Below are positions 2,585-52,054 of a stretch of DNA of 52,196 nucleotides, one piece after another. The notes beneath the pieces were generated by a model. That model was not told the origin of the DNA. It saw nothing but the letters and a program-made list of their open reading frames with translations, and did not search any database. Origin of the DNA: Candidatus Woesearchaeota archaeon (lineage in GTDB: Archaea; Nanobdellota; Nanobdellia; Woesearchaeales; GW2011-AR9); the NCBI GenBank assembly GCA_016185625.1, contig JACPND010000023.1, positions 1 to 52,196 of the forward strand, given 5' to 3'. The stretch's first letter is position 1, and every line of letters starts with the position of its first letter. The position numbers and the translations under genes are program-made.

Positions 2585-2664
2585 TCTGCTCAACAACCCA
2601 CCTACTCTACCACCAAAAACTTTAATAACCGAGCCGCTTCTTACCTCGCAAAAGGGGGCACGGT

Positions 2665-3297: not shown

Positions 3298-3358
3298 TAT
3301 AACCATTAAAGAACAATATTTAAAAAGCCAGCGAGAATCCTTATTAAAAAGAGGAACC

Positions 3359-3751: not shown

Positions 3752-3771
3752 GAGCGACGCTTCGGAACCCT

Positions 3772-4164: not shown

Positions 4165-4207
4165 ATTTTTGATTGTATTTTATCAATACTCACTGCTGCC
4201 GCCTCTT

Positions 4208-4351
4208 TTATTTCACTTCTCTAATGAAAGCGCGTACTGTCGTTGCTTCTACAATACCGCCTTCTCCTAATCTCGTGGGAACTTCTTTAAGGTACACCAG
4301 GTACTTTCTGCCCATCATCTGTACTTCTTGTTGAGACTGGAAGGCTGGCAT
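4208..4351 (-). CDS. 47-residue protein, unrecognised
   Basis: A small frame starting MPAFQSQQEV and ending AFIREVK. Its composition is protein-like, with a conserved-looking EVPTRLGEGGIVEA core. Support comes from position: GGTATATAAATG (4371-4382 on this strand) is a good TATA box centred about 25 nt before the ATG, fitting a leaderless gene. It fills the otherwise empty 4165-4426 gap. No family recognised. Confidence 0.5.
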   Translation of the reverse strand: MPAFQSQQEVQMMGRKYLVYLKEVPTRLGEGGIVEATTVRAFIREVK

Positions 4352-4370
4352 GGGTGAAAACAGCCTGCAA

Positions 4371-4382
4371 ACATTTATATAC
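4371..4382 (-). promoter_or_regulatory. TATA box, possibly bidirectional
   Basis: CATTTATATACC on the plus strand. On the minus strand it is correctly spaced (about 25 nt) for the 47-residue gene. On the plus strand it would place transcription near 4402, giving the Lrp-like gene a leader of about 25 nt that contains a 6-codon frame (MMRPKW, 4413-4433) overlapping its ATG. Confidence 0.45.
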
Positions 4383-4426
4383 CTGTTGCTTGAAAAAGGT
4401 TAAAATATTAAGATGATGCGACCTAA

Positions 4427-5359
4427 ATGGTAACTTTTTCACCAAAATTAGATAGGATAAGTGAAAATATTATTTATCTCCTCTCAGTGGATTCGAGACA
4501 ATCAGTTTCTACTCTCGCCAACGAATTGAAGGTAAACAGAAAGATTGTTGAAAACAGAGTGAACAAGCTGTTCAATGAAGACTACATAAAACATCTGGCT
4601 GTTACTAATGAAAGTAATCGCCTTCGCTTTACTGTTCTGGTCAAATTGAATAAAGTTGATGAAACCACTATTCATAATGTTAAGAAGCTCAAAGGGTTGT
4701 TGAAATTAAAGGAAACGTTAGGGCTCTATGATCTGTCCATCCTATTCAGCGTGTATTCTCAGACAGACATGGAAGAAGCCATTTCTAAACTGAGCAATAT
4801 ATTACACAACAAGATCATTACTTTTGACGTTCTTTCGCACCATTTTGAAGATACGTTGGGGTACAAATCATTCTGCCATGATGGGGGCTATTTACAAAAA
4901 CACCAGCTCCTTAGTCCTAAATCCTGCGTTTTATCCAACGATGAAAGTGTCGTGCTAAAAGTGGTCAAGAAAAAACCCAGTATTTCGTACGTTGATTTAG
5001 CTAAAGAAACAGGAATGAGTTATCTAAAGTTAAAAGAGATTAACCAGAAATGGATTCAGTATGGGCTGGTTCGTTTTTCAGTCGATCCTGATTATGAAAA
5101 GTTGGGATTGCAGTTCCATAATATCCTTGTAAAGATTAAAATGGGGAAGAAGCAGGAGTTTGATGCCTATCTTCAGAAACATCCACGTATTCACTGGGTG
5201 AAACATTCAAATGGCAGATGGGATTATGTATTATCAGTTACTGCGAGAAATATTAATGAATTCATTGATATTACCAAGCAAATCCGGACTGAAAATAACG
5301 ATCTGATTCTGGATGAGACTTCTTTGATTTCAAAAGTACAGGAAGCGAGGCGATATTAA
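4427..5359 (+). CDS. Tandem Lrp/AsnC-like transcriptional regulator
   Basis: 310 residues arranged as two Lrp-like units: an N-terminal winged HTH (about 10-55; SVSTLANELKVNRKIVENRV) with an effector-like domain to about 150, then a second HTH (about 175-215; SYVDLAKETGMSYLKLKEIN) with another ligand-domain-like half. The same architecture occurs in the regulator at 42933. It ends 1 nt before the MTA/SAH nucleosidase start, so the two are one operon. It may sense an amino acid or methionine-cycle metabolite; that is inference. Confidence 0.7.
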   Translation: MVTFSPKLDRISENIIYLLSVDSRQSVSTLANELKVNRKIVENRVNKLFNEDYIKHLAVTNESNRLRFTVLVKLNKVDETTIHNVKKLKGLLKLKETLGLYDLSILFSVYSQTDMEEAISKLSNILHNKIITFDVLSHHFEDTLGYKSFCHDGGYLQKHQLLSPKSCVLSNDESVVLKVVKKKPSISYVDLAKETGMSYLKLKEINQKWIQYGLVRFSVDPDYEKLGLQFHNILVKIKMGKKQEFDAYLQKHPRIHWVKHSNGRWDYVLSVTARNINEFIDITKQIRTENNDLILDETSLISKVQEARRY

Positions 5360-9098: not shown

Positions 9099-11912
9099 TT
9101 ACTCTACCAAAATCCCTACTTTCCCCGGAATGGCCGATCTAGCTTTAGGATGAGTCGAATCCTCTGCCAGCACCATCTCTATCTTACACTGAAACTCATC
9201 TTCCATGAAGGTCTTGGCGTCTTCCATCACTTTTCTCTCTGCGTCCTGGCTGGTGACTAACGCCGGAATCCGGGAAGGATCTTTAACGATATTCGCCACG
9301 ATGGTACTGATTTCTTTGCCTTTGAGTTTCAGGGTTTCCTGTTCCAGCACTTTTTTCATGATTTCGCCGATGTTACGCGTGACATTTAATTCTTTGTGCA
9401 ATACCAGAAATAATTCGTACAGCCAGCTTTCAGCTACAAATAAGGTGAATTTTTGCGGCTTTTCAATTTTCGCCAATTTTAATACGGTACGCATGCCGTC
9501 CATGGTTGTTTGAATAAAATGCTCAGCCTGTTCTTCTTTAAGGTTGATCTGCGTCTCCTGGTGATGCGGCCAGGAAGAGATAGAAACAAGACCTTTTTCA
9601 GGATTTAACTCTTCACTCAAATGCGGCGTAATGGGATTCATGAGCTTGACCCAATCAGAAAGCACCTGTTGTACGGTCGTTTTGTTTGATCCGCCTCTCC
9701 GCACATACCAGCGGAAATCATCGTAGATGGCAAAATAGGCCAACGATACCAATTCCCGGAGGTCATATTCGCGCATAGCATTATTGATTCTCTTGACATT
9801 TTGATGGAATCGCGAGACCAGCCAATCATCAATGGGCTGATGCTTTCCGGTAAGCTTATTCAGCTGCTCCGCCAACAGATAAATTCGTTCCAGGCTGCTC
9901 TTGCAATTGAAGACGAGCTCTTCATTCCAGACAATATCAACGTGGGGAGAGCCGCTCTGTGCGTAATACAGGCGCATCGCATCAACACCATATTTCTCAA
10001 TGGCCTTCGGGATCGGTTCAGCTCCCCCTTTGCTTTTGGAAATTTTGGCCCCTTTACCAGTCACCCACCAATTGACGAAGATGCCGCGAGGCCATTTCTC
10101 TTCCGGAAGAATGGCGATGTGATTCATGATGAAGACCGGAAAATGGACCGTCTGATGTTCCTTCCCGCCTAAATTAAGGTCGAGAGGATAAAAATATTCA
10201 AATTCCTGGCTGATCTCTTTCCACTCGGGCTTGCCGGCTCCTTTTCTGAGGAAGACGTAATCAAAGAATTCTTCGCTAAGATCATCGGCTTTTAATTTTC
10301 CGGCATTAACAAATTTTGAGACGATGTAATACACAGGATAAAGCGTAGAATCACTGATGGGCTCAATGATCCATTTTTCGTCAAATGGAAATTTGCTGCC
10401 AAGCCAATTACCGAGGCGGGCGCAGGCGCGATCGGTAAACCATTCGATAATCGCGGGAAGATTCTGATAGTATTCATGAGGGAAGATGCGCATTTCTTTA
10501 GCCTGCTCTTTACTGCGCTCGGTGAGTTCCGGATCAGAATATTTAATGAACCATTGATCATCGATGCGCTGGATAATCACTTTATGTCCCAAGCGGCAGA
10601 TGACTTCTTCGCTGAGATCGTGAAATACATCGGCTTTTTTGGCCTGAAGTAATTCTGCTTTGATGAGTTCCTTCGCTTCTTCAACCCGCTTGTTGGCGAA
10701 CTGGCCGGCGGCTTCACGCATCACGCCCGTGTGATAGCCGGCTTTGTAGATCTCTTTGGTGGCTTCTTCTAAGCGAGGATCATCGAGAGAGGCGATGTTC
10801 AACTTTTCTACGATTTCCTTTGCGGGAAAATCACCATATCCTTTAGTCTGAATGATGGGGATGAGCTTGATCTCTCTTATTTCAGGACTATTCAATCCAT
10901 ACCGTTCGCATTCCTGCTCGTCTGACTGCAATAATTTCAGCGCAAGATAATCGTACGGCGCATCGCTGGGAACGCTGGTCACGATGCCCGTTCCGACATC
11001 CGGAGTGCAGAAACTGCTGGGCAGGATGTTGATTCCCTTATTGATTCCCGGCGCAAGTGCCTTTTTTCCAAGATAGGATTTAATGTCGACATCCTCTTTC
11101 AAGATAACGTCATCTTTTTGATAGGGCAGCTTTTCTGCCGCCGGCTTGCTGAGGATCCAGTTTTCCCCGTTGACTTCCACGCGAACATATTTTGCTTCAG
11201 GATTGACCCAGAGATTAGTCTGGCCGAAAATAGTTTCCGGACGAAGCGTTGCGGCAACCAGATAATCGTCGCCGATTTTGAATTTCAGAACTGTATATTC
11301 CTGTTTTTCGGCATTCCCCCCTTTGGAAATGTCTGTTTCTGATGGATCGACAGCGACTGGCCCGCAGACAGGGCACGCGGTGGCAAAGTATGGTTTCTGG
11401 ACTAACAGGTCTTTCTGCATCAGTTTTTTGAATTGCCATTGGATGAATCTTTCGTAATCCGGGAAGGTTGTACAGGTAAAACGATCCCAATCACAAAGGA
11501 AACCGAATTTCTTCCAGTAGTCCTCGACATAGATATTGTTGAAGTATTCGATGACCTTTTGCGGATCGGCAAGTTCTTTTATTTTAGTTTCAGGACAGCC
11601 GTTGTTCTGGAGATACTCAATCCAGTCCGGATCGCGCTGTTTTACTTTATTGGCAAAAGCTAAAGCCTGATTCCCGGACGCGTGCGTCCCTACGGGAAAT
11701 AATACCTCTTTGCCATTCAGGCGTTCGTAACGGCAGATGGCGTCGGTGTAGGAAAATCCGCGCATATGGCCGACATGCAGGAAGCCGGAAATGCCGGGAT
11801 AGGCGAAGATCATGAAGAATTTCTCCTTGCCCTTTTTGACCGACGCTTGGCCCAGTTCTGCCTTCTGCCAGGCGTTCTGCCATTTGGTCTGGATTTTAAG
11901 CCAATCGAACAT
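9099..11912 (-). CDS. leuS: Leucyl-tRNA synthetase, archaeal/eukaryotic type
   Basis: 937 residues, the normal size. The HIGH signature is HVGH (46-49), and the KMSKS signature is KISKSKGG near residue 620. The large CP1 editing insertion lies between them (TLRPETIFGQTNLWVNPEA), and the C-terminal part carries the anticodon-binding helical bundle and an archaeal-type tail. TTTAAAAAC about 25 nt before the ATG supports this start. It charges tRNA-Leu in the cytoplasm. Confidence 0.96.
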   Translation of the reverse strand: MFDWLKIQTKWQNAWQKAELGQASVKKGKEKFFMIFAYPGISGFLHVGHMRGFSYTDAICRYERLNGKEVLFPVGTHASGNQALAFANKVKQRDPDWIEYLQNNGCPETKIKELADPQKVIEYFNNIYVEDYWKKFGFLCDWDRFTCTTFPDYERFIQWQFKKLMQKDLLVQKPYFATACPVCGPVAVDPSETDISKGGNAEKQEYTVLKFKIGDDYLVAATLRPETIFGQTNLWVNPEAKYVRVEVNGENWILSKPAAEKLPYQKDDVILKEDVDIKSYLGKKALAPGINKGINILPSSFCTPDVGTGIVTSVPSDAPYDYLALKLLQSDEQECERYGLNSPEIREIKLIPIIQTKGYGDFPAKEIVEKLNIASLDDPRLEEATKEIYKAGYHTGVMREAAGQFANKRVEEAKELIKAELLQAKKADVFHDLSEEVICRLGHKVIIQRIDDQWFIKYSDPELTERSKEQAKEMRIFPHEYYQNLPAIIEWFTDRACARLGNWLGSKFPFDEKWIIEPISDSTLYPVYYIVSKFVNAGKLKADDLSEEFFDYVFLRKGAGKPEWKEISQEFEYFYPLDLNLGGKEHQTVHFPVFIMNHIAILPEEKWPRGIFVNWWVTGKGAKISKSKGGAEPIPKAIEKYGVDAMRLYYAQSGSPHVDIVWNEELVFNCKSSLERIYLLAEQLNKLTGKHQPIDDWLVSRFHQNVKRINNAMREYDLRELVSLAYFAIYDDFRWYVRRGGSNKTTVQQVLSDWVKLMNPITPHLSEELNPEKGLVSISSWPHHQETQINLKEEQAEHFIQTTMDGMRTVLKLAKIEKPQKFTLFVAESWLYELFLVLHKELNVTRNIGEIMKKVLEQETLKLKGKEISTIVANIVKDPSRIPALVTSQDAERKVMEDAKTFMEDEFQCKIEMVLAEDSTHPKARSAIPGKVGILVE

Positions 11913-12052
11913 TCTCCGGAGAATGGGAAGGGTGTTTTTAAAGGTTATTGCATCTAATTTGTTTTTACTTTAAGGATTAGTATTTGAAAGATTACGGTAT
12001 GAATTGAAAACCGAATTATTTATATAACCATCTCTCCTTCTTCCTAATAAAA

Positions 12053-13399
12053 ATGATCAGAAAAGAATGGTTGATATTGATTACTTTATTCTTTTTATTA
12101 GTAGGATGTTCTAAAGTTGTTGTCTGTAACGAACCTTATGTCATAATGGGCACGGGTTGCTGCTTGGATCAGAATGGCAACAATATATGTGATAAGGATG
12201 AAAGCAACACTAGCGAAGAACAGAAAAGTGCAGCAAAAAAAGAGACATCAACAACAGATAGTCAAGAACAGAAAAATATAGTAAAAAATGAGATACTGGA
12301 TTACACAAGTTACAACCTTAATGAACTGAAAGGCGACCTTAACTCCATTCTCGGAAGTGAATATAGTTGGGAGGAAGATAGTAGCGATCTAGGATTTTAC
12401 AATTCAAATCATCTAAAATTGTATGCCATACAAGAACCTGACGAGGGCATTATCAGTTCTCAAGAATTTTATGAACGGTTCTCAGCCAAAAAATGGACTG
12501 GCTATTTACATTTTCTCAACCAAAAAAATATGGGACTGTTACAGCCAGAGTTAGATAAAAAAAGTTTTAGCTCAGAAGAAAAATATAGGGAATATATCAT
12601 TTATAGGATTACTGTTGAACAAACGATCCGTGAAAAAGTAATTGACGTTGGAAATGGAAAAGTAATGGAATACCAATTACTTAACTGGAAGTTTGATAAT
12701 AATGGATACTTTGAAGGGGTATGGGAAAATACCCTTCTCATTTACAAAATCTATTGTTCTCCTGATAAAATTATCTATATACGTCCAGGAGGGGATATGC
12801 TGGGGATGAGTATGTCTGAAGCAAAGAGATCAGAAGTATACAACAATTGGGAGAGTACAGTTCTGTTTGTAAGAAAAAAAATGTTAAATCTATCCAATAG
12901 AATTCTCCAAGAATGTCCTGTTGATAAAGATTTTTTTAGCAATTTTCCTGAGAACGAGTTTAAGAGTTCTAAAACTTTCTATTATTATAAGCCTGTTGCT
13001 CTAGAACAATTTTGGAAGTTGTCTACTGACGTATCCGCCAAAGTTGGACCAGCAAAGAACTATGATGGGAATGTTATAGAAAGCAAGTATACCCTAGAGC
13101 AGATTGATATAATTTTTAATAATAATGATGCCTTTGATATTCAAGACAATTTATTTTTAGATATTAAAACCATTGCAGATAGTAAAGAAGAAGAGGATTT
13201 TGTATCCGAGAAAAAGATGGGTTACTTTCTAAAAGTAAATGAACCTCTTCCTGTAAGTATTGATCACTCTTTAGCAAAGCCACAGTTTTCTGATAACCTC
13301 TCTATTCATGTTTCATTATATGTCCAAGAGAAAGGTAAGGCACCTATAAGACCAACAGATTATGTTCTTTTTACTAACAATACTCTTGTTAAAAAATAG
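12053..13399 (+). CDS. Secreted lipoprotein with a Ca-binding-like loop
   Basis: 448 residues. A signal peptide with lipobox LLVGC (Cys19) indicates a lipid-anchored extracellular protein. Residues 39-50 (DQNGNNICDKDE) resemble a calcium-binding D.N.N..C loop as seen in dockerin or thrombospondin-3 repeats. A Ser/Thr/Lys/Glu-rich linker follows, then a large globular domain I do not recognise. TATA TTTATATAAC (12019-12028) is spaced for leaderless translation. The A/T-rich codon use differs from leuS and nreA. Confidence 0.68.
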   Translation: MIRKEWLILITLFFLLVGCSKVVVCNEPYVIMGTGCCLDQNGNNICDKDESNTSEEQKSAAKKETSTTDSQEQKNIVKNEILDYTSYNLNELKGDLNSILGSEYSWEEDSSDLGFYNSNHLKLYAIQEPDEGIISSQEFYERFSAKKWTGYLHFLNQKNMGLLQPELDKKSFSSEEKYREYIIYRITVEQTIREKVIDVGNGKVMEYQLLNWKFDNNGYFEGVWENTLLIYKIYCSPDKIIYIRPGGDMLGMSMSEAKRSEVYNNWESTVLFVRKKMLNLSNRILQECPVDKDFFSNFPENEFKSSKTFYYYKPVALEQFWKLSTDVSAKVGPAKNYDGNVIESKYTLEQIDIIFNNNDAFDIQDNLFLDIKTIADSKEEEDFVSEKKMGYFLKVNEPLPVSIDHSLAKPQFSDNLSIHVSLYVQEKGKAPIRPTDYVLFTNNTLVKK

Positions 13400-13514
13400 T
13401 CCATTCCAAAACATGTAGTTGAACACTTTAGGCTGCGGTTGTAATAGAATCGTTGGTGTCATTTTCTATTTTTTATCACATTAAATTTAAAAGAAAGCGG
13501 TATTATTATACGCC

Positions 13515-13784
13515 ATGCCTAAATATAAAATCATCTACGACCGCAAAAACTGCATCGGGGTCGGCTCCTGCGCCCTGCTGGCAGCAAAATTCTGGAAGAT
13601 GAATCCCGCCGATGACAAGGCGGATTTAGTGGACGGGAAGCAAAATGAGAAACAAAAGAAGGATGAAGTCTTTGAACTGGAGATTGATGAAAAAGATCTT
13701 CATCAGAATAAAGAGGCAGCCAGAAATTGTCCGGTGAACGTCATTAAGATTTTTGATGAGAAAGGGAAAGAGGTGACTTTATAA
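13515..13784 (+). CDS. Single-cluster ferredoxin, likely [3Fe-4S]
   Basis: 89 residues with the mono-cluster ferredoxin pattern C13-IGVGS-C19 ... N-C72-P. The usual second ligand (position 16 of a C-x2-C-x2-C motif) is Val, so only three Cys remain; this favours a [3Fe-4S] cluster or a non-Cys ligand. A 30-residue charged insertion separates the two halves. TTAAATTTAAAAG at about 13480 may be the promoter. An electron carrier; its partner is not evident in the window. Confidence 0.8.
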   Translation: MPKYKIIYDRKNCIGVGSCALLAAKFWKMNPADDKADLVDGKQNEKQKKDEVFELEIDEKDLHQNKEAARNCPVNVIKIFDEKGKEVTL

Positions 13785-13789
13785 TGGCC

Positions 13790-13962
13790 TTACATTCGTA
13801 CTGCGGAATTGTTTTCTCTAAGCTTCCTTTGCTCTTCTTCCCACTGTCTTCTTTTTTCTAAATAAACATAAAACTCTTCTCCAGATTCTGTAATTCTTAA
13901 TTCCGTTTTAGAGGTATAGCCAAAGTGGAGAACGCCTGAAATATATTTGTCTTGCTTTAATT
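13790..13962 (-). pseudogene. Fragment of a small charged protein gene
   Basis: The minus-strand frame reads a plausible C-terminal piece (GVLHFGYTSKTELRITESGE, then EEFYVYLEKRRQWEEEQRK) with no start codon; a TAA lies just upstream. An ATG in another frame (MEVKIKARQ) starts immediately before, so one frameshift would join them. It could be the end of a winged-helix-like gene. This is the only content I see between the ferredoxin and trm5. Confidence 0.35.
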
Positions 13963-14013
13963 TTTACTTCCATAAGATATTATGGAAATTGCTGATTTCA
14001 CTTACGCCGTTGG

Positions 14014-15069
14014 ATGTCACCTTTTCCAGATAGTTTTATAAAATTAAAACTCTTTCTTCCGGACATGTTAGCTGCCGAGACCGAATTGAAGAATGCCGAG
14101 AAAGTAAAGCAATACCTCTTCAACCATCATCTGCTCCATCCAGACTATCTGCTGGTCAAAGAGTTCGATCGGCTGTATTTTCCGCTGGCAAAGAAAGTCC
14201 ACGTGCCAAACGCCAAAGTCGTGAATACGAAATTCCCTTTTCCGGAAAAACAAAAGCCAGCGACAGTAGAAGAATTGCTGAAAGGAAAACTAACCTCCCT
14301 GGAGCTGGCCATAATCCCAAAATCACAGGAAGTCGTGGGCAAAATTCTGATTCTGGAAATCCCGGAACAGCTCCAGAAGAAAGAGCGTGCCATCGCCGAA
14401 GCGTATCTGAAGGCCAACAAACAGATAGAGACTGTTGTCAAGAAAGACGAAGCCCACAGCGGCGAATTCCGCACCAGAAAAGTAAAAGTCTTGGCGGGAA
14501 AAAATACCAAAGAGACCATCCATCATGAAAATGGCATCGACCTGAAAGTGCATTTAGAAGATACTTATTTCACTTCCCGGCTCGCCAGCGAGCGCTTGCG
14601 AATCGCCAAAAAAGTCAAAAAAGGCGAACGCGTACTAGTGATGTTCGCGGGTGTCGGGCCGTATGCTTTAGTCATCGGCAAAAATGCCCAGCCAAAAGTG
14701 ATCTATGCTGTGGAAATCAACCCCCGAGCCCATCGTTACCTCGTGGATAACGTAGCGTTAAATCATCTGAACAAAAAAATAAGCGTATTTCTGGGCGATG
14801 TCCGTACAGTGGTTCCGAAACTTTCCGGTAAATTTGACCGCATCGTCATGCCTTTGCCCAGAACCGGAGAGCAATTTCTAGACCTCGCGCTCAAAAAATC
14901 CAGAAAATGGGCCAGAATCCATCTCTATGCCTTTCTTGCAGAAGAAGATATCAAAAAAGAAGCAAGAAAAATAAAAGAAAAGTACAAAAATGTTCGTGTT
15001 CTGCGAGCCGTCACCTGCGGACAATTCTCACCCAGAGTACGCCGAGTTTGCTTTGACTTGGCACGTTAA
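14014..15069 (+). CDS. trm5: tRNA (guanine37-N1)-methyltransferase Trm5
   Basis: 351 residues. The N-terminal D1-like part precedes a class I SAM methyltransferase core: motif [18 protein letters not shown] (from about residue 208), an acidic motif [10 protein letters not shown] and the Trm5 signature MPLPR near 278, followed by LHLYAF-like and VRRVCFDL ends. It forms m1G37 next to the anticodon, preventing frameshifting. It converges on and overlaps the cold-shock gene by 4 nt. The related TYW2 family is a less likely alternative. Confidence 0.88.
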
Positions 15070-41286: not shown

Positions 41287-41347
41287 GATAGAACCACCGT
41301 ATTTGTTTAGCTTTTGGAAGTGTATGTAATTGACTGATAGTTCTATC
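41287..41347. repeat. Inverted repeat enclosing a GTATTTGTTTAGC box
   Basis: GATAGAAC (41287-41294) pairs with GTTCTATC (41340-41347). The loop contains GTATTTGTTTAGC (41299-41311), the box that starts the family G elements at 34445 and 38225. An overlapping ACTGATA/TATCAGT pair extends to about 41384. No gene occupies 41211-41482. Confidence 0.35.
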
Positions 41348-41482
41348 CTATTCAAAATTATAATAAACAGAGGGTATCAGTCAGACCACTACACACCCAA
41401 AAATGTTTGGTTTATTATGTTATTACTCATAAAGGACACACAAATAGAAAGCTTTATAAACTGGTGCTACTTTAAGCTTCGT

Positions 41483-42410
41483 ATGAACTTTAAAAAATTA
41501 CTGGCAGCAGGTTTGATTGGGGCATTGGTTGCAGGGGTAGCTGGATGTAAAAAGGAAACTCCTGCTCTTGAGGCTGTGGTTGAACAGACTGCCCCATTTG
41601 AAAGAACAATCAACGGACATTCCTATAAGTTTGAAGGGAATAAAGTTACAGAAATGACTTCTGATGAGGATAATCAAGCAACGTATGGTATCATTTCCGA
41701 TGCTCATGGCGAAGCAGGAAAAGCAAGAAGGATTACGATATGGACGAACAGATTCTAGGGCGGATAAGTCTGAAATAAAAGACGTACTTGAAGCCGTTGC
41801 ACAAATGGGATTACCAATTTTTGTTATTCCTGGTAACCATGAACAAAAACCTGATTATACCACAGCACTTGCAGAAGTAACAGCTAAATATGATAATGTT
41901 ATTGATATGGTAAAGTTCAGAGTTTTTAATGGTGATGATGTTGATTTTGTGAGCTTACCTGGATACCAAGCGTTTAAGATTCCTGGAAGACAGTTTATTC
42001 CCGATAATGGGTATTGGGCAAAACCAGAATTAATTCAATCAACAGGTAAACTACGAAATGGTTTAGATGATGCTGTTGTTTTAATTGCTCATGGCTGTGG
42101 TAAAACCGCAAGTCCTGGTCCAGCAACCATTTATGGTGGCAGGGATGTCGGTGACGGGAATACTACTAAAATGATGAGAGAAAACAACATTCCGTTTGCA
42201 GTTTGCGGACATATCCATGAAGCTGGAGGATTAGCAGCAACTTATGATGGAAAATTGGTAAAGCAAGGCGAATGGGCGAAGCAATTTAGTGCTAATTTTG
42301 GTGGTCTTGAAGATTGGAAGCATCTTGATGGAAAAACGTATAGTGGAATGGCTGGTATTTTATCAGTTAAAGGAGATGAAGCAAAATTTGAGATGTTATA
42401 CACACAGTAA
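41483..42410 (+). pseudogene. Lipoprotein metallophosphoesterase, frameshifted with a deletion
   Basis: ATG at 41483 (TATA CTTTATAAAC 27 nt upstream) starts a lipoprotein signal MNFKKLLAAGLIGALVAGVA with lipobox Cys22, then motif I ISDAHGE; this frame stops at 41756-41758. The next frame continues DKSEIKDVLEAVAQMGLP, motif III GNHEQ, motif IV HGCGKT and motif V CGHIHE to 42410. The GD motif II that should lie between them is missing, so a frameshift plus a deletion of roughly 25 codons has inactivated the gene. Confidence 0.68.
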
Positions 42411-43874: not shown

Positions 43875-43937
43875 TATGGAACAAAAATAAGTATTTGTAT
43901 ATAAAATTATCTTTTAGTTCCGTATCTCTCTCAGACA

Positions 43938-43948
43938 TTTTATATTTT
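43938..43948 (+). promoter_or_regulatory. TATA box of the seven-gene operon
   Basis: TTTTATATTTT is centred 24-27 nt before the tandem ATG codons at 43967 and 43970, predicting a leaderless operon transcript. Confidence 0.55.
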
Positions 43949-43966
43949 AGATATGAATCCCTATAA

Positions 43967-45217
43967 ATGATGTTGGGGCCATACAAAGCAAATAATGATA
44001 GAACAATAAGTTACCAAGGAAATAAGATATTTGTGCCTATTGGGGATATTGTTAATGTTTCTTACCCTACGGATGAAGTTGAAGACCGAGTGCGACAATT
44101 TAATTCTGATCCAATGTGGGGCAGAATTGCAAGAATCAACCATCAGATAAATATGGGCACAAATAATTATTTTGACAGAATGGGAGCTCTTTTTACTGCT
44201 CTTCCATTAACTACAAGAATGATTTCTTCTCCTGGAGCAGTGTATGGCAAAGAAGCAATTGATTATACCTCTGATACCTGTCCAATCACATTGAAGTGGT
44301 TCAAGCAAAAGAAAAACGCTTTTCTCTCCGAATCTTCTCAAATATACCTAGAATTAGCATTGATGCAGGAAGGAGTGGATCATGCTTATTCCATTTATAA
44401 TTCATTTCGTAAAGAAGAAGCTGATGCGACACACTTGTCAGAATTCCATCATGTTGAATATGAAGGGAAGATTGATCAATCACAGAACAACGTAGTAGCT
44501 TTAGGTTTAGTAGGACGCATTCTTAGAGATTTGATTACTGATAATGAAGAAGATCTTGCATTTTTTCTCTCGGAAGAAAAGATAGGAAATCTTGGTGACC
44601 TTGCTGAGAATATCCAAAGAATTCCACAGATTACATTCAAAGAAGCATTAAACGCGTTATATGACGATACTAAAAAAGATAAATACAGAAAATTTACAAT
44701 GAATGAAAATTTTGGTTCATGGGAAGAAATAAGACTTACCGAGATTTATGGAAATATGGTTGCAGTAAGTCAATTCCCATTACTTGAAGTTCCATTTTAT
44801 CATGCAATGGTTGAAGGTGTGGTGGAAAAATGGACAGAACATAAAGTGGATATAATTAAAGGAGGAATACTTCATTGGAGTAACCCATTCCCCACACCAG
44901 CACAAGCTATAGAATATGATAGAGAGCGAAGTTCATTAGTCGCCGACAATACTGATTTTATCTGGCCTGGATACAGAGAGACAATCGGAAGTGGTCATAG
45001 AGTACGTTCCATCTCAGAACTTGAAGAGAAAGCACGAATCTTTAATCTTCCGCGAGAGGATTACCAACCCTACTTACAAAGCAGGGAACTACCTGGCTAT
45101 GTAGAAACATCTGGGTTTGGCTTAGGTTGGGAGAGGCTTCTTCAGGGCTTACTTGAAATGCCATTTATCTGGAGTGCAACTCAATTCCCAAGAGGGCATA
45201 CAACATTAAAACCATGA
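43967..45217 (+). CDS. Asp/Asn-tRNA synthetase-like class II enzyme without anticodon domain
   Basis: 416 residues. The class IIb catalytic core is clear: SESSQIYLELALMQEG (like LxQSPQLY), motif 2 FRKEEADATHLSEF (147-160), and motif 3 GFGLGWERLL (383-392) followed by an FPRG end. The N-terminal OB-fold anticodon-binding domain of AspRS/AsnRS is absent. This is also the layout of archaeal asparagine synthetase AS-AR, so it may make Asp-AMP or Asn-AMP and pass the residue to something other than tRNA. It is the first gene of the operon and overlaps the next by 4 nt. Confidence 0.75.
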   Translation: MMLGPYKANNDRTISYQGNKIFVPIGDIVNVSYPTDEVEDRVRQFNSDPMWGRIARINHQINMGTNNYFDRMGALFTALPLTTRMISSPGAVYGKEAIDYTSDTCPITLKWFKQKKNAFLSESSQIYLELALMQEGVDHAYSIYNSFRKEEADATHLSEFHHVEYEGKIDQSQNNVVALGLVGRILRDLITDNEEDLAFFLSEEKIGNLGDLAENIQRIPQITFKEALNALYDDTKKDKYRKFTMNENFGSWEEIRLTEIYGNMVAVSQFPLLEVPFYHAMVEGVVEKWTEHKVDIIKGGILHWSNPFPTPAQAIEYDRERSSLVADNTDFIWPGYRETIGSGHRVRSISELEEKARIFNLPREDYQPYLQSRELPGYVETSGFGLGWERLLQGLLEMPFIWSATQFPRGHTTLKP

Positions 45218-46122
45218 AAGAAACAACTGTTAACAAAGTAGGTAAAACACTAGATGATTTTCTTAGTTATAGGACTTATAATCCTGATTCAATGGTTACT
45301 ATTGTAAATATGCTTGATCCAGTTGCAACAAAACGATTCTCAGAAGAGTATCTTGGAAATAAGACCGGATTGATGCAAGTAAATGGTAGTGTTGTAGATG
45401 GAGTTTATTGTGCAGTATTTCCGAGTGAAGATGTATTCGATTATCTTGCTACTGAAAATATTGCTGATGCTGTTCTTTTTGTAAAACATGCTATGGAATG
45501 GGAAGAGTTAGGACATGGATTTGTTCCACTGAAAAATGAGCAGCTAGAACTTTTAAAAGATAGAAAAATTTCGCTTTATTCTGCTCATGCACCAATTGAT
45601 AATAACAAAACATTTGCACCAAGTGTATGCTTTGCAAGACAGTTAGGATATGACATAGTAGATGAATTGGCTGAAAAATGCAGAAATTATGGCTGGGTGC
45701 TTGAAGTTCCTCAGGGAACAACATATGACAAATTACATCAACGTCTTCTGAGAGCAACAGGTTTAAATGGCATTCAAAGATATTATCATCATGATCCTGT
45801 TAGGAGAATTGCAGTTACAGCAGGGGGTGGAGATTATATTCCTGCACTAGAACAATCACTTAGCAAAGGTTGCGATACTTATGTAACTGGAATACTGTTT
45901 TTTCGAGGTTCAGACTATGCAAGAGAGAACAATCCAATATTTGTAGAAAGATTAAAAAAAGGTGGACTTAATGGATTTGGTGCAAGTCATTATCTTTCTG
46001 AAGTAGAAGGTATCAAAACTTTAGCCGGTTTATTAAATAGTATTTTACCAGTTCCTGTGAGGTTCATTGAAGAACAGAATAAACGCAATAATCTTGAAGA
46101 GAATTGGGGGTTGGAATTATGA
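45214..46122 (+). CDS. NIF3-family protein
   Basis: 302 residues. NIF3 (DUF34) features: FVKHAMEWEELGHG, SLYSAHAPID with the metal-binding His/Asp, RRIAVTAGGGDY and CDTYVTG, and a C-terminal SHYLSEVEG with metal-binding His and Glu. These proteins carry a dinuclear metal centre and have been linked to nucleotide or cofactor hydrolysis, without a settled reaction. Start and stop overlap both neighbours in the operon. Confidence 0.78.
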   Translation: MKETTVNKVGKTLDDFLSYRTYNPDSMVTIVNMLDPVATKRFSEEYLGNKTGLMQVNGSVVDGVYCAVFPSEDVFDYLATENIADAVLFVKHAMEWEELGHGFVPLKNEQLELLKDRKISLYSAHAPIDNNKTFAPSVCFARQLGYDIVDELAEKCRNYGWVLEVPQGTTYDKLHQRLLRATGLNGIQRYYHHDPVRRIAVTAGGGDYIPALEQSLSKGCDTYVTGILFFRGSDYARENNPIFVERLKKGGLNGFGASHYLSEVEGIKTLAGLLNSILPVPVRFIEEQNKRNNLEENWGLEL

Positions 46123-46970
46123 CTACATCAAATCAAGAGGAAGTGCTTCAATACTTTAAAAGTAAAGCTTCCGGATATGATCTCGTAGAAGGGCAAGTTT
46201 ATTGGAGACTTTCAGATCAATTGCTGTGGCATCTCTTTGATGGAAACATCCTATCCCAGTTGAATGAAAGTTTTCATTTTTTAGACGCGGGGGGAGGAAC
46301 AGGGCGTTGGAGTGAGAAAGTTTTGCGAAGTTATGATAGTTCGACAGGGATAATCTATGATCTCTCTGCAGATATGCTTGAACAAGCAGAACGAAAAAGA
46401 CAGAACGGTCTGGAAAGTCGACTAGAGTTAAGACAAGGGAACATTGAAAGAATGAGTGATTTGGATGATGGAACATTTGATTTAACGTTCAGTTTTCACA
46501 ATGTTTTAGGATTTGTCAATTCACCACAAGAAGCAATAAAAGAAATGGCAAGAGTTACTAAAGAAGGTGGACATGTTGTTTCTGTCATTCCTAACCAATA
46601 TCATTGTATCTTCTTTAATTTAATGCTGGGCAGAGTAGAAGAAGCGGTATGTGCTGCAGAGAAAGGTAAAGGAAGATTTACTTTAGACATGCCCTATATG
46701 CACTTATTTACTCCATCAAATTTAAGAGAACTTTATCAAAAAGCTGGTTTAGACAACATTGGTATTTTTGGTTTCCCTGTAACTATCTACCCTGGAATGC
46801 AGGAAACACAGATAACTGGTTCTACTGAAAAAATAGAAAACCTACTAAAGAATAGTGACAATTACACAAACATTTATAAATTAGAAGAACAACTAAGTTC
46901 CAGAGGAGAGATTGCTGCCAGAGGCAATAATTTATTTGTAATTGGAACGAAGATGGAGGGACAAAAATGA
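46119..46970 (+). CDS. SAM-dependent methyltransferase, class I
   Basis: 283 residues from the ATG at 46119, which overlaps the NIF3 stop (ATGA). Motif I FLDAGGGTGRWSEKVL, an acidic motif II YDLSADML, FDLTFSFHNVLGFV (motif IV) and EMARVTKEGGHVVSVIPNQ mark a Methyltransf_11-type enzyme of the UbiE/small-molecule group. It probably tailors the product of the operon. It overlaps the first ProRS-like gene by 4 nt. Confidence 0.82.
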   Translation: MTTSNQEEVLQYFKSKASGYDLVEGQVYWRLSDQLLWHLFDGNILSQLNESFHFLDAGGGTGRWSEKVLRSYDSSTGIIYDLSADMLEQAERKRQNGLESRLELRQGNIERMSDLDDGTFDLTFSFHNVLGFVNSPQEAIKEMARVTKEGGHVVSVIPNQYHCIFFNLMLGRVEEAVCAAEKGKGRFTLDMPYMHLFTPSNLRELYQKAGLDNIGIFGFPVTIYPGMQETQITGSTEKIENLLKNSDNYTNIYKLEEQLSSRGEIAARGNNLFVIGTKMEGQK

Positions 46971-48193
46971 AATATTCACAAGCGTTTATTTTTACACAAA
47001 AGGAATCAGATAAAGATATTGAATCGGTAAGCCATGACTTGACTGTTCGTGCAGGACTAGCTTATCAGGTAGCCGCAGGGCATTATGATTTTCTTCCGCT
47101 AGGTACAAGAGTGCTGCGAAAAGTTGAAGGAATTATCCGAGAAGAGATGAATAAATCTGGCGCACAAGAGATTGTGATGCCAATCATGCAACCAGCAACA
47201 TTGTGGCAAGAAAGTCAGCGATGGAAAATTTATGGGGAAGAAATGTTTAAACTTAAGAGCAGGACAGAAAGAGAATTCTGTTTAGGTCCTACCCATGAAG
47301 AACTTATTGTTGATTTAGCAAGAGCACATGTTAAATCATACAAAGATTTACCATTTACTTTATATCAATTTGGGACGAAGTTTAGAGATGAGAAGCGACC
47401 TCGTGGTGGACTTCTGCGAGCCAAAGAGTTCGTTATGAAAGATGCATATAGTTTTGACATGACAGAAGAAGGCTTAAACGAAAGCTATGATAAAATGCGT
47501 GAAGCTTATTTGCAGATCCTAAGAAGAGTAGGTGTTACAGCAATTCCAACTGTTGCTCAAACAGGAGAGATAGGGGGCAGTTTTTCGGAGGAATTTATGG
47601 CACCATCCCCTGCAGGTGAGGATAAATTCGTTGTTGGTAAGGATGGAAAGGCAAGAAAACTTGAGGATATTGCAGAAGGAGTTGACGGAAGTGAGGTTCA
47701 AGTTGGTATTGAAATTTGTCATATATTCAAGTTGGGAACTCGATACTCAACGACAATGGGTCTAACTTACATGGATCAAAGTGGAAATCAACATCCTGTC
47801 ATAATGGGCTGTTATGGTATTGGAGTAAGTCGTATGCTCCCTACTGCTATTGAACAAAACCACGATGATAAAGGAATTGTTTGGCCGAGTCAGATTGCTC
47901 CATTTGACGCTGTTGTAATTCCAATTCGTTATGACAAGCAGGAGGTTAGAGAACCAACAGATAAAGTTTATTCAGGATTGTTAGAACGAGGCTTTGATGT
48001 TCTCTTAGATGATAGAGATCTCTCACCAGGTGCTAAATTTAAAGACCATGACTTGCTCGGAACACCATACAAATTGATAATTGGCGAGAGAGGACTTAAA
48101 AACAACACTATTGAACTTGAACATCGAAGAGATGGTACGAAAGAAATAATTAACTTAAGCAATATTGTTGAAGAATTCGCCAAAAGAAAATGA
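46967..48193 (+). CDS. Prolyl-tRNA synthetase-like protein, editing domain absent
   Basis: 408 residues resembling bacterial-type ProRS. Motif 1 region PLGTRVLRKVEGIIREEMNK, motif 2 FRDEKRPRGGLLRAKEF (139-155), motif 3 MGCYGIGVSRML, then a complete anticodon-binding (HGTP) domain. The INS editing domain of about 180 residues, normally between motifs 2 and 3, is missing, which explains the length (bacterial ProRS about 570). It could be a working ProRS, a drug-resistant second copy, or a prolyl-AMP donor for biosynthesis. Confidence 0.85.
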   Translation: MKYSQAFIFTQKESDKDIESVSHDLTVRAGLAYQVAAGHYDFLPLGTRVLRKVEGIIREEMNKSGAQEIVMPIMQPATLWQESQRWKIYGEEMFKLKSRTEREFCLGPTHEELIVDLARAHVKSYKDLPFTLYQFGTKFRDEKRPRGGLLRAKEFVMKDAYSFDMTEEGLNESYDKMREAYLQILRRVGVTAIPTVAQTGEIGGSFSEEFMAPSPAGEDKFVVGKDGKARKLEDIAEGVDGSEVQVGIEICHIFKLGTRYSTTMGLTYMDQSGNQHPVIMGCYGIGVSRMLPTAIEQNHDDKGIVWPSQIAPFDAVVIPIRYDKQEVREPTDKVYSGLLERGFDVLLDDRDLSPGAKFKDHDLLGTPYKLIIGERGLKNNTIELEHRRDGTKEIINLSNIVEEFAKRK

Positions 48194-49380
48194 GACTCTC
48201 TAAGCAGCTTTTTCAAGATAGGCTGGCCGTTCCTGATAATTGGAGAGATATAGATACTTACAAATTATTTGAAGAGTGTGGATTCGTTGAATTTCCCTAT
48301 TCTGGATTTCCCCTATTTTTACCAATCGGGAAAAGAGTAATGGAAAATATTTGCGGTATTATCAGAGAAGAAGCAGAGACTAGCGGATTTAATGAGGTTT
48401 ATCTTCCATTGGTTCAAAACCGCTCTTTTCTGGAATCTACAGGACGCGCTAATCTTTTTAAAAATGAGTTAATGGAACTGAAAGGTGGTTTAGAGAATTA
48501 TATTCTATCCCCAACAAATGAAGAAGTTTTCTTGGATTTAGCACAACGAGGATTATCTTCTTATCGACAGCTTCCCGTAAGAATTTATCAAATCGCAGAA
48601 AAATTCAGGAATATAAAAAAAGCAAAGGGGATATTACGAAGCAAACAATTTCTGATGTGCGATATGGTTTCTATGGATGAAACCGAGCAATCTTTACATG
48701 AATCAGCATTATTGTTTGAAAAATTAGTTGATTCTGTATTTTCTCGAATGAAATTATCCCCGTTAAGAGTTGAAAAAAATGATGGAAAATATGTAGATTA
48801 TCTCATACCATGTAATGAAGGGGAAACAAGCATCGCTTTTGATAGCAAAGGCAATACCCACTATGCAAGAGAAGGTGATAAAGATATTACTAAAGCATCA
48901 AGTGTTGCGATGTACTTTATTTTTGAGCAGATTAGAAGCCAAAATCCAACCTATCAATCTGACAGAGGAACCAGAGAAGAGATATATTTAGGAACATACG
49001 GGTTTGGGATACAACGATGTTTCCATGCGGCAGTTGAAATCTATAAAGATAATTTAGGGATAAATTTTCCAGATAGCATCAGACCATTTGATATTTCCAT
49101 AGTTGTCATGGATCCGGACGATGCTGAACAAATGGCAAGAAGTATAAATTATTATAATTCATTATCTGGTGATGGAAGAAAAGTGATGTTAGATGATAGG
49201 CATGGAAAAACCCTGAAAGAAAAAGCTGAATTTGCTGATTTTTATGGGGCTCCTGTAAAATTAGTAATTGGTAGAAAAGAGATAGAAACTGGTTCTGTTA
49301 CAATAAAGAAGCGAGGAGACAGGCAAGGAGAATTAATCAATTTTAATCAACAATTAGTGGAGGCACATATCAATGGATAA
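48190..49380 (+). CDS. Second, diverged ProRS-like protein
   Basis: 396 residues, co-linear with the preceding protein. Motif 2 reads EKFRNIKKAKGILRSKQF, motif 3 YGFGIQRCFHAAVE, and an HGTP-like C-terminal domain follows (DDRHGKTLKEKAEFADFYGA). Catalytic motifs have drifted (CYGIGVSRML has become TYGFGIQRCF), but the arginines of motifs 2 and 3 are kept. The pair may form a heterodimer with specialised subunits. It overlaps the HIT gene by 8 nt. Confidence 0.75.
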   Translation: MRLSKQLFQDRLAVPDNWRDIDTYKLFEECGFVEFPYSGFPLFLPIGKRVMENICGIIREEAETSGFNEVYLPLVQNRSFLESTGRANLFKNELMELKGGLENYILSPTNEEVFLDLAQRGLSSYRQLPVRIYQIAEKFRNIKKAKGILRSKQFLMCDMVSMDETEQSLHESALLFEKLVDSVFSRMKLSPLRVEKNDGKYVDYLIPCNEGETSIAFDSKGNTHYAREGDKDITKASSVAMYFIFEQIRSQNPTYQSDRGTREEIYLGTYGFGIQRCFHAAVEIYKDNLGINFPDSIRPFDISIVVMDPDDAEQMARSINYYNSLSGDGRKVMLDDRHGKTLKEKAEFADFYGAPVKLVIGRKEIETGSVTIKKRGDRQGELINFNQQLVEAHING

Positions 49381-49804
49381 TTGTCTTTTTTGTGGAATTG
49401 TAGAAGAGAGAATTCCTGCTTACAAGATTTATGAAGACGATAAGCATGTTGCAGTTCTTGATATTTATCCTGCTGTTCGTGGTCAATCACTAGTGCTGCC
49501 CAAAAAACATTTTGGAAGTTATGTTTTTGAAATGCAAGATGATGATTATATTGCACTGATGGTGGCTTCTAAAAAGGTAGCTAGATTAACTGACGAGAAA
49601 CTAAAATCTTTAAGAACATGTATGGTGATGGAAGGTATGGAAGTTGATCATGCTCATATTAAATTGTACCCTATTTATGAAGTTCTTACTAACATCGCTT
49701 CTGGAACAATTGATTTAAACAAATATTCTGGGTTTATAAGTACCAAACACGGAGAAAGGATGAGTGGTTCTGAGCTTGAGAAGATATTAGCAAGATTTAA
49801 ATAA
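49373..49804 (+). CDS. HIT-family hydrolase, HxHxK variant
   Basis: 143 residues. N-terminal CLFCGIVEERIPAYKIYED with Cys4/Cys7, LDIYPAVRGQSLVLPKKHFG, and the histidine triad HAHIKLYP with His93, His95 and Lys97 in place of the third His. The central nucleophilic His is kept. HIT enzymes cut nucleoside phosphoramidates and aminoacyl-AMP; HIT proteins can give immunity to microcin C-like compounds by cleaving the P-N bond. It lies just before the MccF-like peptidase. Confidence 0.85.
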   Translation: MDNCLFCGIVEERIPAYKIYEDDKHVAVLDIYPAVRGQSLVLPKKHFGSYVFEMQDDDYIALMVASKKVARLTDEKLKSLRTCMVMEGMEVDHAHIKLYPIYEVLTNIASGTIDLNKYSGFISTKHGERMSGSELEKILARFK

Positions 49805-49829
49805 AAGAATTAAACCTATCATATTCAAT

Positions 49830-50858
49830 ATGATTAAACCAAAAAAGCTCAAGAAAGGAGATACTATTGCTATTATATCCCCCTCTAGTGGATTAGCAAA
49901 ACTATTTCCTCATAGAATCGAACGTGCTAAGATAGCATTGGAGCGATTAGGATTTAAAGTAAAACTATTTCCCACAACTTCAAAATTTGAAAATGGAAAG
50001 GCTGGAATAATTACTGAGCGAGTAAAGGATATTCATGATGCATTCTCAGACAAAAGCGTTAAAGCAATTATGTGTGCAATTGGTGGTTTATCTGCTAATG
50101 AACTTCTGGAAAAATTGGATTATGGTTTAATCAAAAAGAATCCAAAAATATTTTGTGGTTATTCTGATATTACTATTTTACATTGTGCAATCCAAAAAAA
50201 ATCTAATTTTGTGACATTTTACGGGCCATGTGCGATGACCCAGTTTGGGGAATACCCAGAGCCACTGAAATATACAGTTGATTTCTTCCTAAAAGCAGTA
50301 GCAAATGATAAACCAGTTGGTATAATATCTTCTTCGGAAAAATGGACTGATGAAGTGTTAGATTGGGGGACTAAAGAGGACTTGAAAAGACCAAGAAAAC
50401 TTTCTCCCAATTTAGGGCACGTATGGTTAAAAGAAGGCAAAGCTGAAGGCAAAATTGTTGGTGGATGTTTGTATTCTCTTCTTCAGGTTAAAGGGACAGA
50501 ATACGATTTAGATTATGCTGATAAAATTCTTTTCATAGAAGTACCCGAAGGAGAAGATTTCACAAAAGGAACTCCATTATCTTATGTTGATTCACAGTTA
50601 ATGGATTTGAGAAATGCAGGAGTATTTGATAAGATTAAAGGACTGATTGTAGGGGTGTCTTTTGGTTATAAAGAAAATGAACCAGATCAATTTAAAGAAT
50701 TCATTAGGAACCATACGAAAGAATATAATTTTCCTGTTTTATTCAACGTAAATATAGGCCATGCTGACCCGATTATCACTATGCCACTTGGAGTTAAAGC
50801 AAATTTGGATTCTACTAGTAATTTATTTTCTATAGATGAATCTGGAACAGAATCATAA
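49830..50858 (+). CDS. MccF-type S66 serine carboxypeptidase
   Basis: 342 residues. The S66 triad is Ser112 (FCGYSDIT), Glu237 (LFIEVPEG) and His311 (NIGHADP), close to Ser118/Glu243/His311 of E. coli MccF. The insertion KWTDEVLDW ... SPNLGHVWL (about 171-200) belongs to the MccF clade rather than to LD-carboxypeptidases (LdcA). MccF cleaves the amide linking peptide or aspartate to the nucleotide of microcin C and so protects the producer. Last gene of the operon, 25 nt after the HIT gene; its TAA abuts the right inverted repeat. Confidence 0.85.
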   Translation: MIKPKKLKKGDTIAIISPSSGLAKLFPHRIERAKIALERLGFKVKLFPTTSKFENGKAGIITERVKDIHDAFSDKSVKAIMCAIGGLSANELLEKLDYGLIKKNPKIFCGYSDITILHCAIQKKSNFVTFYGPCAMTQFGEYPEPLKYTVDFFLKAVANDKPVGIISSSEKWTDEVLDWGTKEDLKRPRKLSPNLGHVWLKEGKAEGKIVGGCLYSLLQVKGTEYDLDYADKILFIEVPEGEDFTKGTPLSYVDSQLMDLRNAGVFDKIKGLIVGVSFGYKENEPDQFKEFIRNHTKEYNFPVLFNVNIGHADPIITMPLGVKANLDSTSNLFSIDESGTES

Positions 50859-51029: not shown

Positions 51030-51214
51030 TAACGTAGCAACTATCCGAAGTTGCGAGGCTCCTCGAAAACCCCCTCGTGGAGTGGAGCGAAGCGGAACGG
51101 AACAGAGCTGGGGTTTTCAGAGCTGAGCCGAGCAATTTGGGTGGAGTGAGCCGAGCGACCGACTTTCCTTTTTGGGGAGAGAGCGAGGCGAACGCAACCG
51201 GATAGTTGCTGTTA
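51030..51214. repeat. Palindrome A2
   Basis: (GCC)TAACGTA, arm GCAACTATCCG (51037-51047), AAGT, inner GAAAACCCC/GGGGTTTTC, arm CGGATAGTTGC (51199-51209), T, GTTA. Shares CCTCGTGGAG and GGAACAGAGCT with A1. Followed by the conserved CGACCGAAGCGAAGCG-CAGGGAG segment (51222-51244), which also occurs with one mismatch at 33056-33078. Confidence 0.75.
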
Positions 51215-51265
51215 TATTCCCCGACCGAAGCGAAGCGCAGGGAGTGGTCGACCGAAGGGAGAAGT

Positions 51266-51483
51266 CGTGGCTTGTAGTTTTTGGTGTAAAATAGTGTTTC
51301 GTCGTCCGTTTTCAGCACTGGCGCTCGGCGAGGCGCAAATGCGACCGGAGGGAGCATGCGCCGAGTAGAGACAAGCTTTTCGACCAGCGAGTGCGAAGCA
51401 CCAGCGAGGAGAAAAGTTGGCCGTCGAGCCGCCAGTGTGTGCTGAAAATTTAACTAAAAATAAATCCCCAAAAACTACCCACG
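51266..51483. repeat. Palindromic spacer B1
   Basis: CGTGG...GTAGTTTTTGG (to 51284) pairs with CCAAAAACTAC.CCACG (51468-51483); inside, TTTTCAGCACTGGCG (51309-51323) pairs with CGCCAGTG-TGT-GCTGAAAA (51430-51448); the centre contains GC-rich hairpins and no gene. Direct repeat of B2, 458 bp away. Confidence 0.75.
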
Positions 51484-51491
51484 ATTGAATA

Positions 51492-51672
51492 TAACGTATG
51501 CAACTTTCCGAAGTCCCAAGGGTGCCCTCGAAAATTAGAGGCAGCCCACTAATTTTCAGAGCGGAGGTTAGGGTGGCACGAAGTGCTGGTGGGATTTGGG
51601 AGAGCGAGTTCTGTAGCCCGACATTCATTTTGGGGAGGGCGGAAGAACGAGCGAACCGGAAAGTTGCCGTTA
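51492..51672. repeat. Palindrome A3
   Basis: TAACGTAT, arm GCAACTTTCCG (51500-51510), AAGT, inner GAAAATTAG/CTAATTTTC, arm CGGAAAGTTGC (51657-51667), C, GTTA. Followed by the same conserved segment as A2. Confidence 0.75.
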
Positions 51673-51723
51673 TCTTCCCCGACCGGAGCGAAGCGCAGGG
51701 AGCGGTCGACCGAAGGGAGAAGT

Positions 51724-51942
51724 CGTGGATTGTAGTTTTTGGTGTAAAATAGTGTTCCGTAGTTCGTTTTTCAGCACTGGCGCTCGGCGAGGCGCAAATG
51801 CGACCGGAGGGAGCATGCGACGAGTAGAGACAAGCTTTTCGACTATCGAGCGCTGGGCGCTTTCGAGGAGAAAAGTTGGCCGTCGAGCCGCCAGTGTGTG
51901 CTGAAAATTCAACTAAAAATGGATCCCCAAAAACTACCCACG
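51724..51942. repeat. Palindromic spacer B2
   Basis: Close copy of B1: the same GTAGTTTTTGG/CCAAAAACTAC and TTTTCAGCAC/GTGCTGAAAA arms. The central hairpin between CTTTTCGA and GAGGAGAAAAG has a different sequence from B1 but still folds. Confidence 0.75.
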
Positions 51943-51950
51943 ATTGAAGA

Positions 51951-52054
51951 TAACGTATGGGGTTTTGAGAAGTCGCCGCCACTCATTTCGTTATCAAATC
52001 TGCGGCGATTTGGGTGAGCCCCGAGCTGAGGGGCGAACCTCAAAACCCCTGTTA
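51951..52054. repeat. Palindrome A4
   Basis: TAACGTAT, arm GGGGTTTTGAG (51959-51969), AAGT, inner TCGCCGC/GCGGCGA, arm CTCAAAACCCC (52039-52049), T, GTTA. The arm sequence is unrelated to A1-A3 yet still 11 bp and perfect. Nothing gene-like follows to the window end. Confidence 0.75.

Follow-up and report, generated by a model that had tools for sequence, protein, structure and literature searches.

Among the nucleotide antibiotics that mimic an aminoacyl-adenylate, the one whose genes lie closest to those discussed here is agrocin 84, whose agnA encodes a truncated asparaginyl-tRNA synthetase (AsnRS) without the anticodon domain, turned into a biosynthetic enzyme (PMC4392301), and whose AgnB2 is a leucyl-tRNA synthetase (LeuRS) shown by experiment to provide immunity (PMC5059758). 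Phosmidosine, a prolinamide phosphoramidate nucleotide of Streptomyces, is listed as a likely inhibitor of prolyl-tRNA synthetase (ProRS) (PMC7540745, PMC7689648); the literature that we searched held no published gene cluster for it. Microcin C-like systems protect their makers with MccF, with MccG (S51) and with the phosphoramidase MccH (PMC9239234). Here, we compare with these systems a seven-gene operon at positions 43,967 to 50,858 of contig JACPND010000023.1 from a Candidatus Woesearchaeota archaeon, all 52,196 nucleotides of which make up the stretch that we call the window. We argue that the operon is an island that rather probably makes a small nucleotide antibiotic in the agrocin 84 manner, an aminoacyl-adenylate mimic, and shields its host against it, and that its product is probably, like phosmidosine, a mimic of prolyl-AMP.

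The window is an entire contig of a genome of 1.16 Mb (46 contigs, about 100% complete). The seven genes are co-directional and overlap by 4 to 8 bp or almost touch, with 25 bp between the last two, and a regulator gene diverges from them (Table 1). Pfam and NCBIfam profiles, with which we assigned the eight proteins to families, recognise a double AsnC/Lrp regulator, a class IIb aminoacyl-tRNA synthetase (aaRS) core that we call AsnL, a DUF34/NIF3 protein, an S-adenosylmethionine (SAM) methyltransferase, two family-II ProRSs that we call ProA and ProB, a HIT protein and an S66 peptidase with its N and C domains. All eight open reading frames (ORFs), their families and the divergent Lrp-like regulator had been named in an earlier reading of the DNA letters (the original prediction), and the ORF positions and the profiles bear them out. 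The GC content of the operon is 36.1%, against 43.8 ± 1.2% in other 6.9-kb stretches of the window, and for this reason the operon looks acquired. We found no direct repeats flanking it, and the idea of a pasted-in mobile element was rejected.

The comparison with agrocin 84 turns on AsnL. Searching plasmids by tblastn led us to AgnA, and the tree unites the AsnL and AgnA-type proteins in a single clade (100/99) that excludes AsnRS and aspartyl-tRNA synthetase (AspRS); within it, AsnL is itself a clade (100/99) and the AgnA type another (99/96). In the alignment, the two have in common the N-terminal signature TT..SSP and a motif-2 loop of reduced length. NCBIfam gives AsnL 121 bits against the AsnRS model (cut-off 414) and 78 bits against the model for asparagine synthetase A, AsnA (cut-off 389), and it is therefore a full member of neither. 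Its AlphaFold model matches AsnRS structures, at a mean predicted local distance difference test (pLDDT) of 79, and the invariance of R148 in motif 2 and R390 in motif 3 across 15 relatives argues, from sequence, for a working adenylation site. The window's AsnL also has an extra loop at about residues 284 to 324, shorter or missing in relatives, which AlphaFold does not model with confidence (pLDDT under 50 at 291 to 320). AsnL is a new and sporadic family and probably the common ligase of the clusters described below.

The partners of the two enzymes are of the same kinds. Plasmid pAgK84 carries, in the agn cluster, agnA, a methyltransferase homologous to the type that we call type 2, agnB2 (the resistant LeuRS) and the MccF-like agnC5; the operon likewise has an AgnA-type AsnRS core without anticodon domain, a SAM methyltransferase, a spare aaRS and an MccF-like peptidase. 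It differs in having a ProRS where agrocin 84 has a LeuRS, in the additional ProRS-like ProB, in a methyltransferase of another type (type A) and in its archaeal host, and none of the further agnC, agnD and agnE tailoring genes was recognised in it. Similar sets lie on plasmids of Xenorhabdus bovienii, Peribacillus and Streptomyces sp. NBC_01707 and, without S66, on one of Exiguobacterium. Each of these four uncharacterised bacterial clusters resembles the operon in its AsnL/AgnA-like protein, SAM methyltransferase and aaRS-related core protein, three of the four have S66, three have a full aaRS, and those of Xenorhabdus and Streptomyces have the ProB family in common with the operon; they differ in that their enzymes are of the AgnA and not the AsnL type and in that transporters or oxidative tailoring genes are present. 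At L111, a DPANN locus, an AgnA-type enzyme is surrounded by partners of the window's kinds, namely a type-A methyltransferase, S66 and ProA, so that AsnL and AgnA look interchangeable. Within the phylum, further AgnA-type clusters came down to that of genome G290, the other matches listed looking by their length like AsnRS or AspRS.

Two of the plasmid loci deserve a word of their own. On the Streptomyces sp. NBC_01707 plasmid (L076, 9947-18089), the AgnA-type gene is accompanied by a SAM methyltransferase, a flavin adenine dinucleotide (FAD)/molybdopterin oxidase pair, a ProRS-like gene and S66; this is a candidate for the phosmidosine gene cluster, as an 8-oxo-adenine would fit the molybdoenzyme. 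On Pantoea plasmids (L072, 8368-9963), an AgnA-type domain lies in a protein annotated as a GNAT acetyltransferase and adjoins a major facilitator superfamily transporter; this may be a form of the system with just two genes.

What, then, are two ProRS-like genes doing here? Other contigs of the same genome encode a ProRS of the archaeal family I, along with an AsnRS and an AspRS of the non-discriminating kind; the three synthetase-like genes of the operon are therefore extras, not sole copies, and we rejected a housekeeping role for them. ProA is an intact enzyme by its motifs, scores 507 bits against a proS_fam_II cut-off of 307 and is 48% identical to E. coli ProRS. ProB has an altered motif 2 and keeps T109, E111 and R140 invariant within its family, and its predicted model superposes on R. 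palustris ProRS with a TM score of 0.85; in ProRS, T-x-E residues make contact with proline. The INS editing domain, said beforehand to be missing from the first of the two, is indeed missing there, and it is missing as well from the second, in which its presence had been implied. Among the 371 genomes of our phylum sample, family-II ProRS occurs in three (the window, L111 and L175), two of them within AsnL/AgnA clusters; the third is paired with another ProRS-like gene and has no AsnL. A family-I ProRS match is present elsewhere in all 12 of the AsnL/AgnA genomes tested, over the curated cut-off in 11. ProB is found without ProA at L045, L047, L049, L056, L065 and L066, which argues against an obligatory ProA-ProB heterodimer and fits ProB as a core component and ProA as optional immunity; the two probably do separate jobs, ProA in immunity and ProB in biosynthesis. 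The L175 pair (2017-4519, genome G205), an INS-less family-II ProRS and a diverged ProRS-like protein, has for neighbours an APH-like gene and an NMT1-type ATP-binding cassette (ABC) importer.

The S66 protein is of the MccF type. Against an MccF-like structure it scores 205 bits, against E. coli MccF about 150 and against LdcA-type structures 65 at most; its catalytic triad (S112/E237/H311) and Trp172 loop align with E. coli MccF, the loop being missing in E. coli LdcA; and in the grouping E. coli LdcA falls with other DPANN S66 proteins and not with this one. An LdcA identity was rejected also on the LdcA equivalog score (98 against a cut-off of 378). MccF is an S66 peptidase, in agreement with these structure matches, and MccH a HIT protein. 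AsnL loci resemble microcin C systems in their MccF-type S66, MccG-type (S51) and possibly MccH-type (HIT) enzymes. They differ in their common enzyme, which is a class II synthetase core. No MccB (ThiF/E1-like) domain was found among the eight proteins by Pfam or NCBIfam, no exporter lies in the operon, and no MccA-like precursor peptide is recognisable, the only gaps that could hold a heptapeptide ORF being the promoter gap of 92 bp and one of 25 bp. The operon is not a microcin C cluster, just as had been said, and the view of microcin C as its nearest kin gives way to agrocin 84 and probably phosmidosine, the latter resembling it as a compound of the expected kind, not through its genes. 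The S66 gene is the genome's sole one, and the HIT gene is one of five.

If the operon were a chance assembly, its parts should not keep meeting elsewhere. AsnL is present in 11 of the 371 genomes, none of the other ten belonging to the family of the window's genome. Relatives with the gene are recorded as Pacearchaeota, Woesearchaeota and Nanoarchaeota, and the host is therefore most likely a DPANN archaeon. The GTDB-220 collection has AsnL on 29 contigs, which are mostly of DPANN, with three haloarchaea, one metagenome-assembled genome labelled Marsarchaeota and a few bacteria, Actinomadura included. Viral contigs yielded no relatives, and spread of AsnL by phages or viruses was rejected. 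S66 genes occur in 65 of the 371 genomes, yet in 10 of the 11 that have AsnL (Fisher p=1.4e-7), adjoining it in nine, and the pairing is seen again and again in genomes independent of one another. At 30 loci, we scored the genes that lie within 6 kb of AsnL and found a SAM methyltransferase at 22, an aaRS or aaRS-like gene at 21, S66 at 18 and HIT at six, so that the gene set does recur with the same parts, as had been expected of it. The original prediction is supported in part, and none of the three findings that it had named as fatal to itself (sole ProRS and AsnRS genes, an S66 protein grouping with LdcA, no co-occurrence in other genomes) has come about. At least one candidate immunity hydrolase is present at 25 of the 30: six loci without S66 have an amidohydrolase or an MccG-like S51 peptidase instead, and S66 is mutually exclusive with these (p=0.0016). 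Type-A and type-2 methyltransferases are never found together (p=0.009); type 2, at 17 loci, is the homologue of the agn enzyme (257 bits). The aaRS partners vary (ProRS-like, LysRS-like, AspRS-like or AsnRS, an AlaRS core, a truncated LeuRS), and since some of them may serve housekeeping (the AsnRS at L055 and that at L058, for instance), 21 is an upper count of dedicated partners. Distant homologues of the AsnC/Lrp regulator diverge from AsnL at L043, L046, L066 and L069.

Among cultured haloarchaea, two Natrinema loci (L061 and L063, about 9995-14042) have AsnL, an ABC ATPase, an ABC-2 permease and S66 in succession; beyond the single archaeal-type LeuRS of these loci lies a type-2 methyltransferase. 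An S51 (PepE/MccG-like) peptidase occupies the usual place of S66 at L049 (9066-9752), the S66 gene of L041 (14104-15107) is split into two overlapping ORFs by a frameshift or a sequencing error, and the cluster at L042 includes an RlmN/Cfr-like radical SAM methyltransferase (3334-4230), perhaps for an adenine modification.

From these parts, one can imagine a pathway. AsnL would attach to AMP a group derived from an amino acid, by a bond stabler than that of an acyl-adenylate; we propose an acyl-phosphoramidate, of the kind that agrocin 84 and phosmidosine have. ProB would supply or select proline, and the outcome would be a prolyl-AMP mimic that blocks ProRS; since phosmidosine exists, such a product is already shown to occur in nature. 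Which of the two enzymes makes which bond we can only infer. The methyltransferase would tailor the product; ProA, as an insensitive ProRS, would keep the producer translating; any toxin inside the cell would be cut by S66 at its acyl-N bond and by HIT at its P-N bond; expression would be under the control of the Lrp-like protein; and export would fall to an unlinked transporter or to cell contact. Where the original prediction spoke of an aminoacyl- or peptidyl-nucleotide, perhaps with Asn/Asp and Pro, the aminoacyl part fits better, no peptide part being indicated, and proline is the amino acid to which the variable aaRS-like gene probably points; the AsnRS likeness of AsnL is no sign of an Asn/Asp warhead.

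The same genes can be read otherwise, and one way of doing so is to suppose that nothing is made at all. The operon would then be a resistance island, in which S66, HIT and the methyltransferase detoxify the nucleotide antibiotics of neighbours and ProA bypasses them. An MccF-type S66, a HIT protein and an extra ProRS would suffice for that, standalone MccF-like S66 genes do exist in other DPANN genomes, and the operon has no exporter; but this would leave AsnL and ProB, with their conserved catalytic residues, without a job, and against it stand the sister relation of AsnL to an enzyme of biosynthesis and the methyltransferases that keep turning up with AsnL, one type of which (type 2) is the homologue of agnA's neighbour. 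We consider it unlikely. The original prediction had offered both a system that makes and protects and a resistance island, and we prefer the former because AsnL is sister to the biosynthetic AgnA and shares its kinds of partner gene. It is a shade less likely again that AsnL and ProB make a nucleotide conjugate that is no antibiotic, a signal or a modified cofactor that S66 and HIT recycle. The sporadic but wide distribution, the Lrp-like regulator adjoining amino-acid-activating enzymes and the NIF3 gene would all suit such a conjugate, whereas an extra intact ProRS, peptidases of the MccF and MccG types and the match to agrocin in gene content speak of a toxin and its immunity.

The lack of an anticodon domain invites two more thoughts. 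Cores of this form, derived from aaRSs, are known as protein modifiers, and EpmA is among the weak NCBIfam matches, so AsnL and ProB might aminoacylate a protein or a lipid, in the manner of EpmA or LysX, with the methyltransferase completing the modification; the EpmA match is just 19 bits, S66, the extra ProRS and the kinship with AgnA would go unexplained, and we judge the idea very improbable. Archaeal asparagine synthetase A is likewise an AsnRS-like core without anticodon domain, and there are weak AsnA matches, but AsnL lies far under those models (78 bits where 389 are called for), its clade is separate, and its neighbourhood is conserved and differs from that of AsnA; that AsnL is an asparagine synthetase A among ordinary duplicates is hardly to be believed.

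None of this makes the antibiotic reading comfortable everywhere, and several points weigh against it. AsnL and AgnA are only about 25% identical, and the tree program gave a long-branch warning at their join, which is therefore less sure than the shared alignment signature. The methyltransferase of the window is type A and not the agn type. All six HIT proteins near AsnL have the motif HxHxK, in which the middle His is kept and the third replaced. The NIF3 gene, the genome's only one, finds no place in the pathway. No exporter gene was found in the operon. Nine of the 30 loci had no aaRS-like gene scored, some of them being cut contigs, and at L059 a pyridoxal phosphate decarboxylase takes the place of the aaRS partner. 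In Natrinema, the LeuRS adjoining AsnL is the only archaeal-type LeuRS over the cut-off; it is not supported as a spare copy, and not every linked aaRS is therefore a spare.

Table 1. Features of the operon and its divergent regulator (window coordinates).
Feature	Coordinates	Strand	Remarks
Divergent double AsnC/Lrp-type regulator, 313 aa	42933..43874	-	Pfam HTH_24 and HTH_AsnC-type, two stretches each
Divergent promoter region	43875..43966		By sequence, archaeal-type TATA-like boxes ~25 bp upstream of each start codon
AsnL, AsnRS-like class IIb core without anticodon domain	43967..45217	+	Sister family of AgnA
DUF34/NIF3 protein	45214..46122	+	
Type-A SAM methyltransferase	46119..46970	+	Homologues at L045, L048, L052, L057, L111
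ProA, bacterial family-II ProRS without INS domain	46967..48193	+	Motifs intact; proposed insensitive (immunity) ProRS
ProB, diverged ProRS paralogue	48190..49380	+	Family also present in bacterial agn-type clusters; proposed biosynthetic
HIT-family protein	49373..49804	+	HxHxK instead of HxHxH; proposed phosphoramidase
MccF-type S66 peptidase	49830..50858	+	S112, E237, H311; Trp172 loop

The methyltransferase probably starts at ATG 46119, in an ATGA overlap, rather than at the listed TTG 46104. Elsewhere in the window, a repeat lies at the contig end just downstream of the operon (51170-51974), the only one that the look for flanking repeats brought up: about 459 bp in two diverged copies (86-90%), in a stretch of 53% GC. 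At 41330-42410, a lipoprotein-like start and a metallophosphoesterase-like body are in different frames, which makes a frameshifted gene or an assembly error. A defence-system library gave only weak, generic matches to the locus. An Rfam search of the genome for tRNAs returned only 11 matches over threshold, all long (84-123 nt) and none called Pro by ARAGORN; introns or unusual forms may be frequent among the genome's tRNAs, or the search may have passed over ordinary ones.

DPANN genomes are tiny, and the literature that we searched assigns no such antibiotic pathway to them, nor did we find any that links agrocin-like clusters or MccF systems to DPANN, subscription journals and preprints lying mostly outside the search. 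We would extend the argument, tentatively and with less than even confidence, to a whole family of nucleotide antibiotics, modular and not recognised before, whose makers would be minimal-genome DPANN archaea and haloarchaea. In it, one conserved AsnRS-derived ligase would be combined with exchangeable modules of aaRS origin (Pro, Lys, Asp/Asn, Ala, Leu), and each module would yield an adenylate mimic of a different amino acid, directed against that aaRS in competitors or in the host that the symbiont needs. Such a family would further point to a simple code, in which the linked aaRS-like module may predict both the amino acid and the drug target, and cultured Natrinema species with the ABC-transporter version make the idea testable. 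Natural aaRS inhibitors, if new, and the enzymes of immunity to them are of general interest; and a compact, recurrent and apparently horizontally acquired antibiotic locus, if true, would alter our view of how DPANN archaea deal with their hosts and their rivals.

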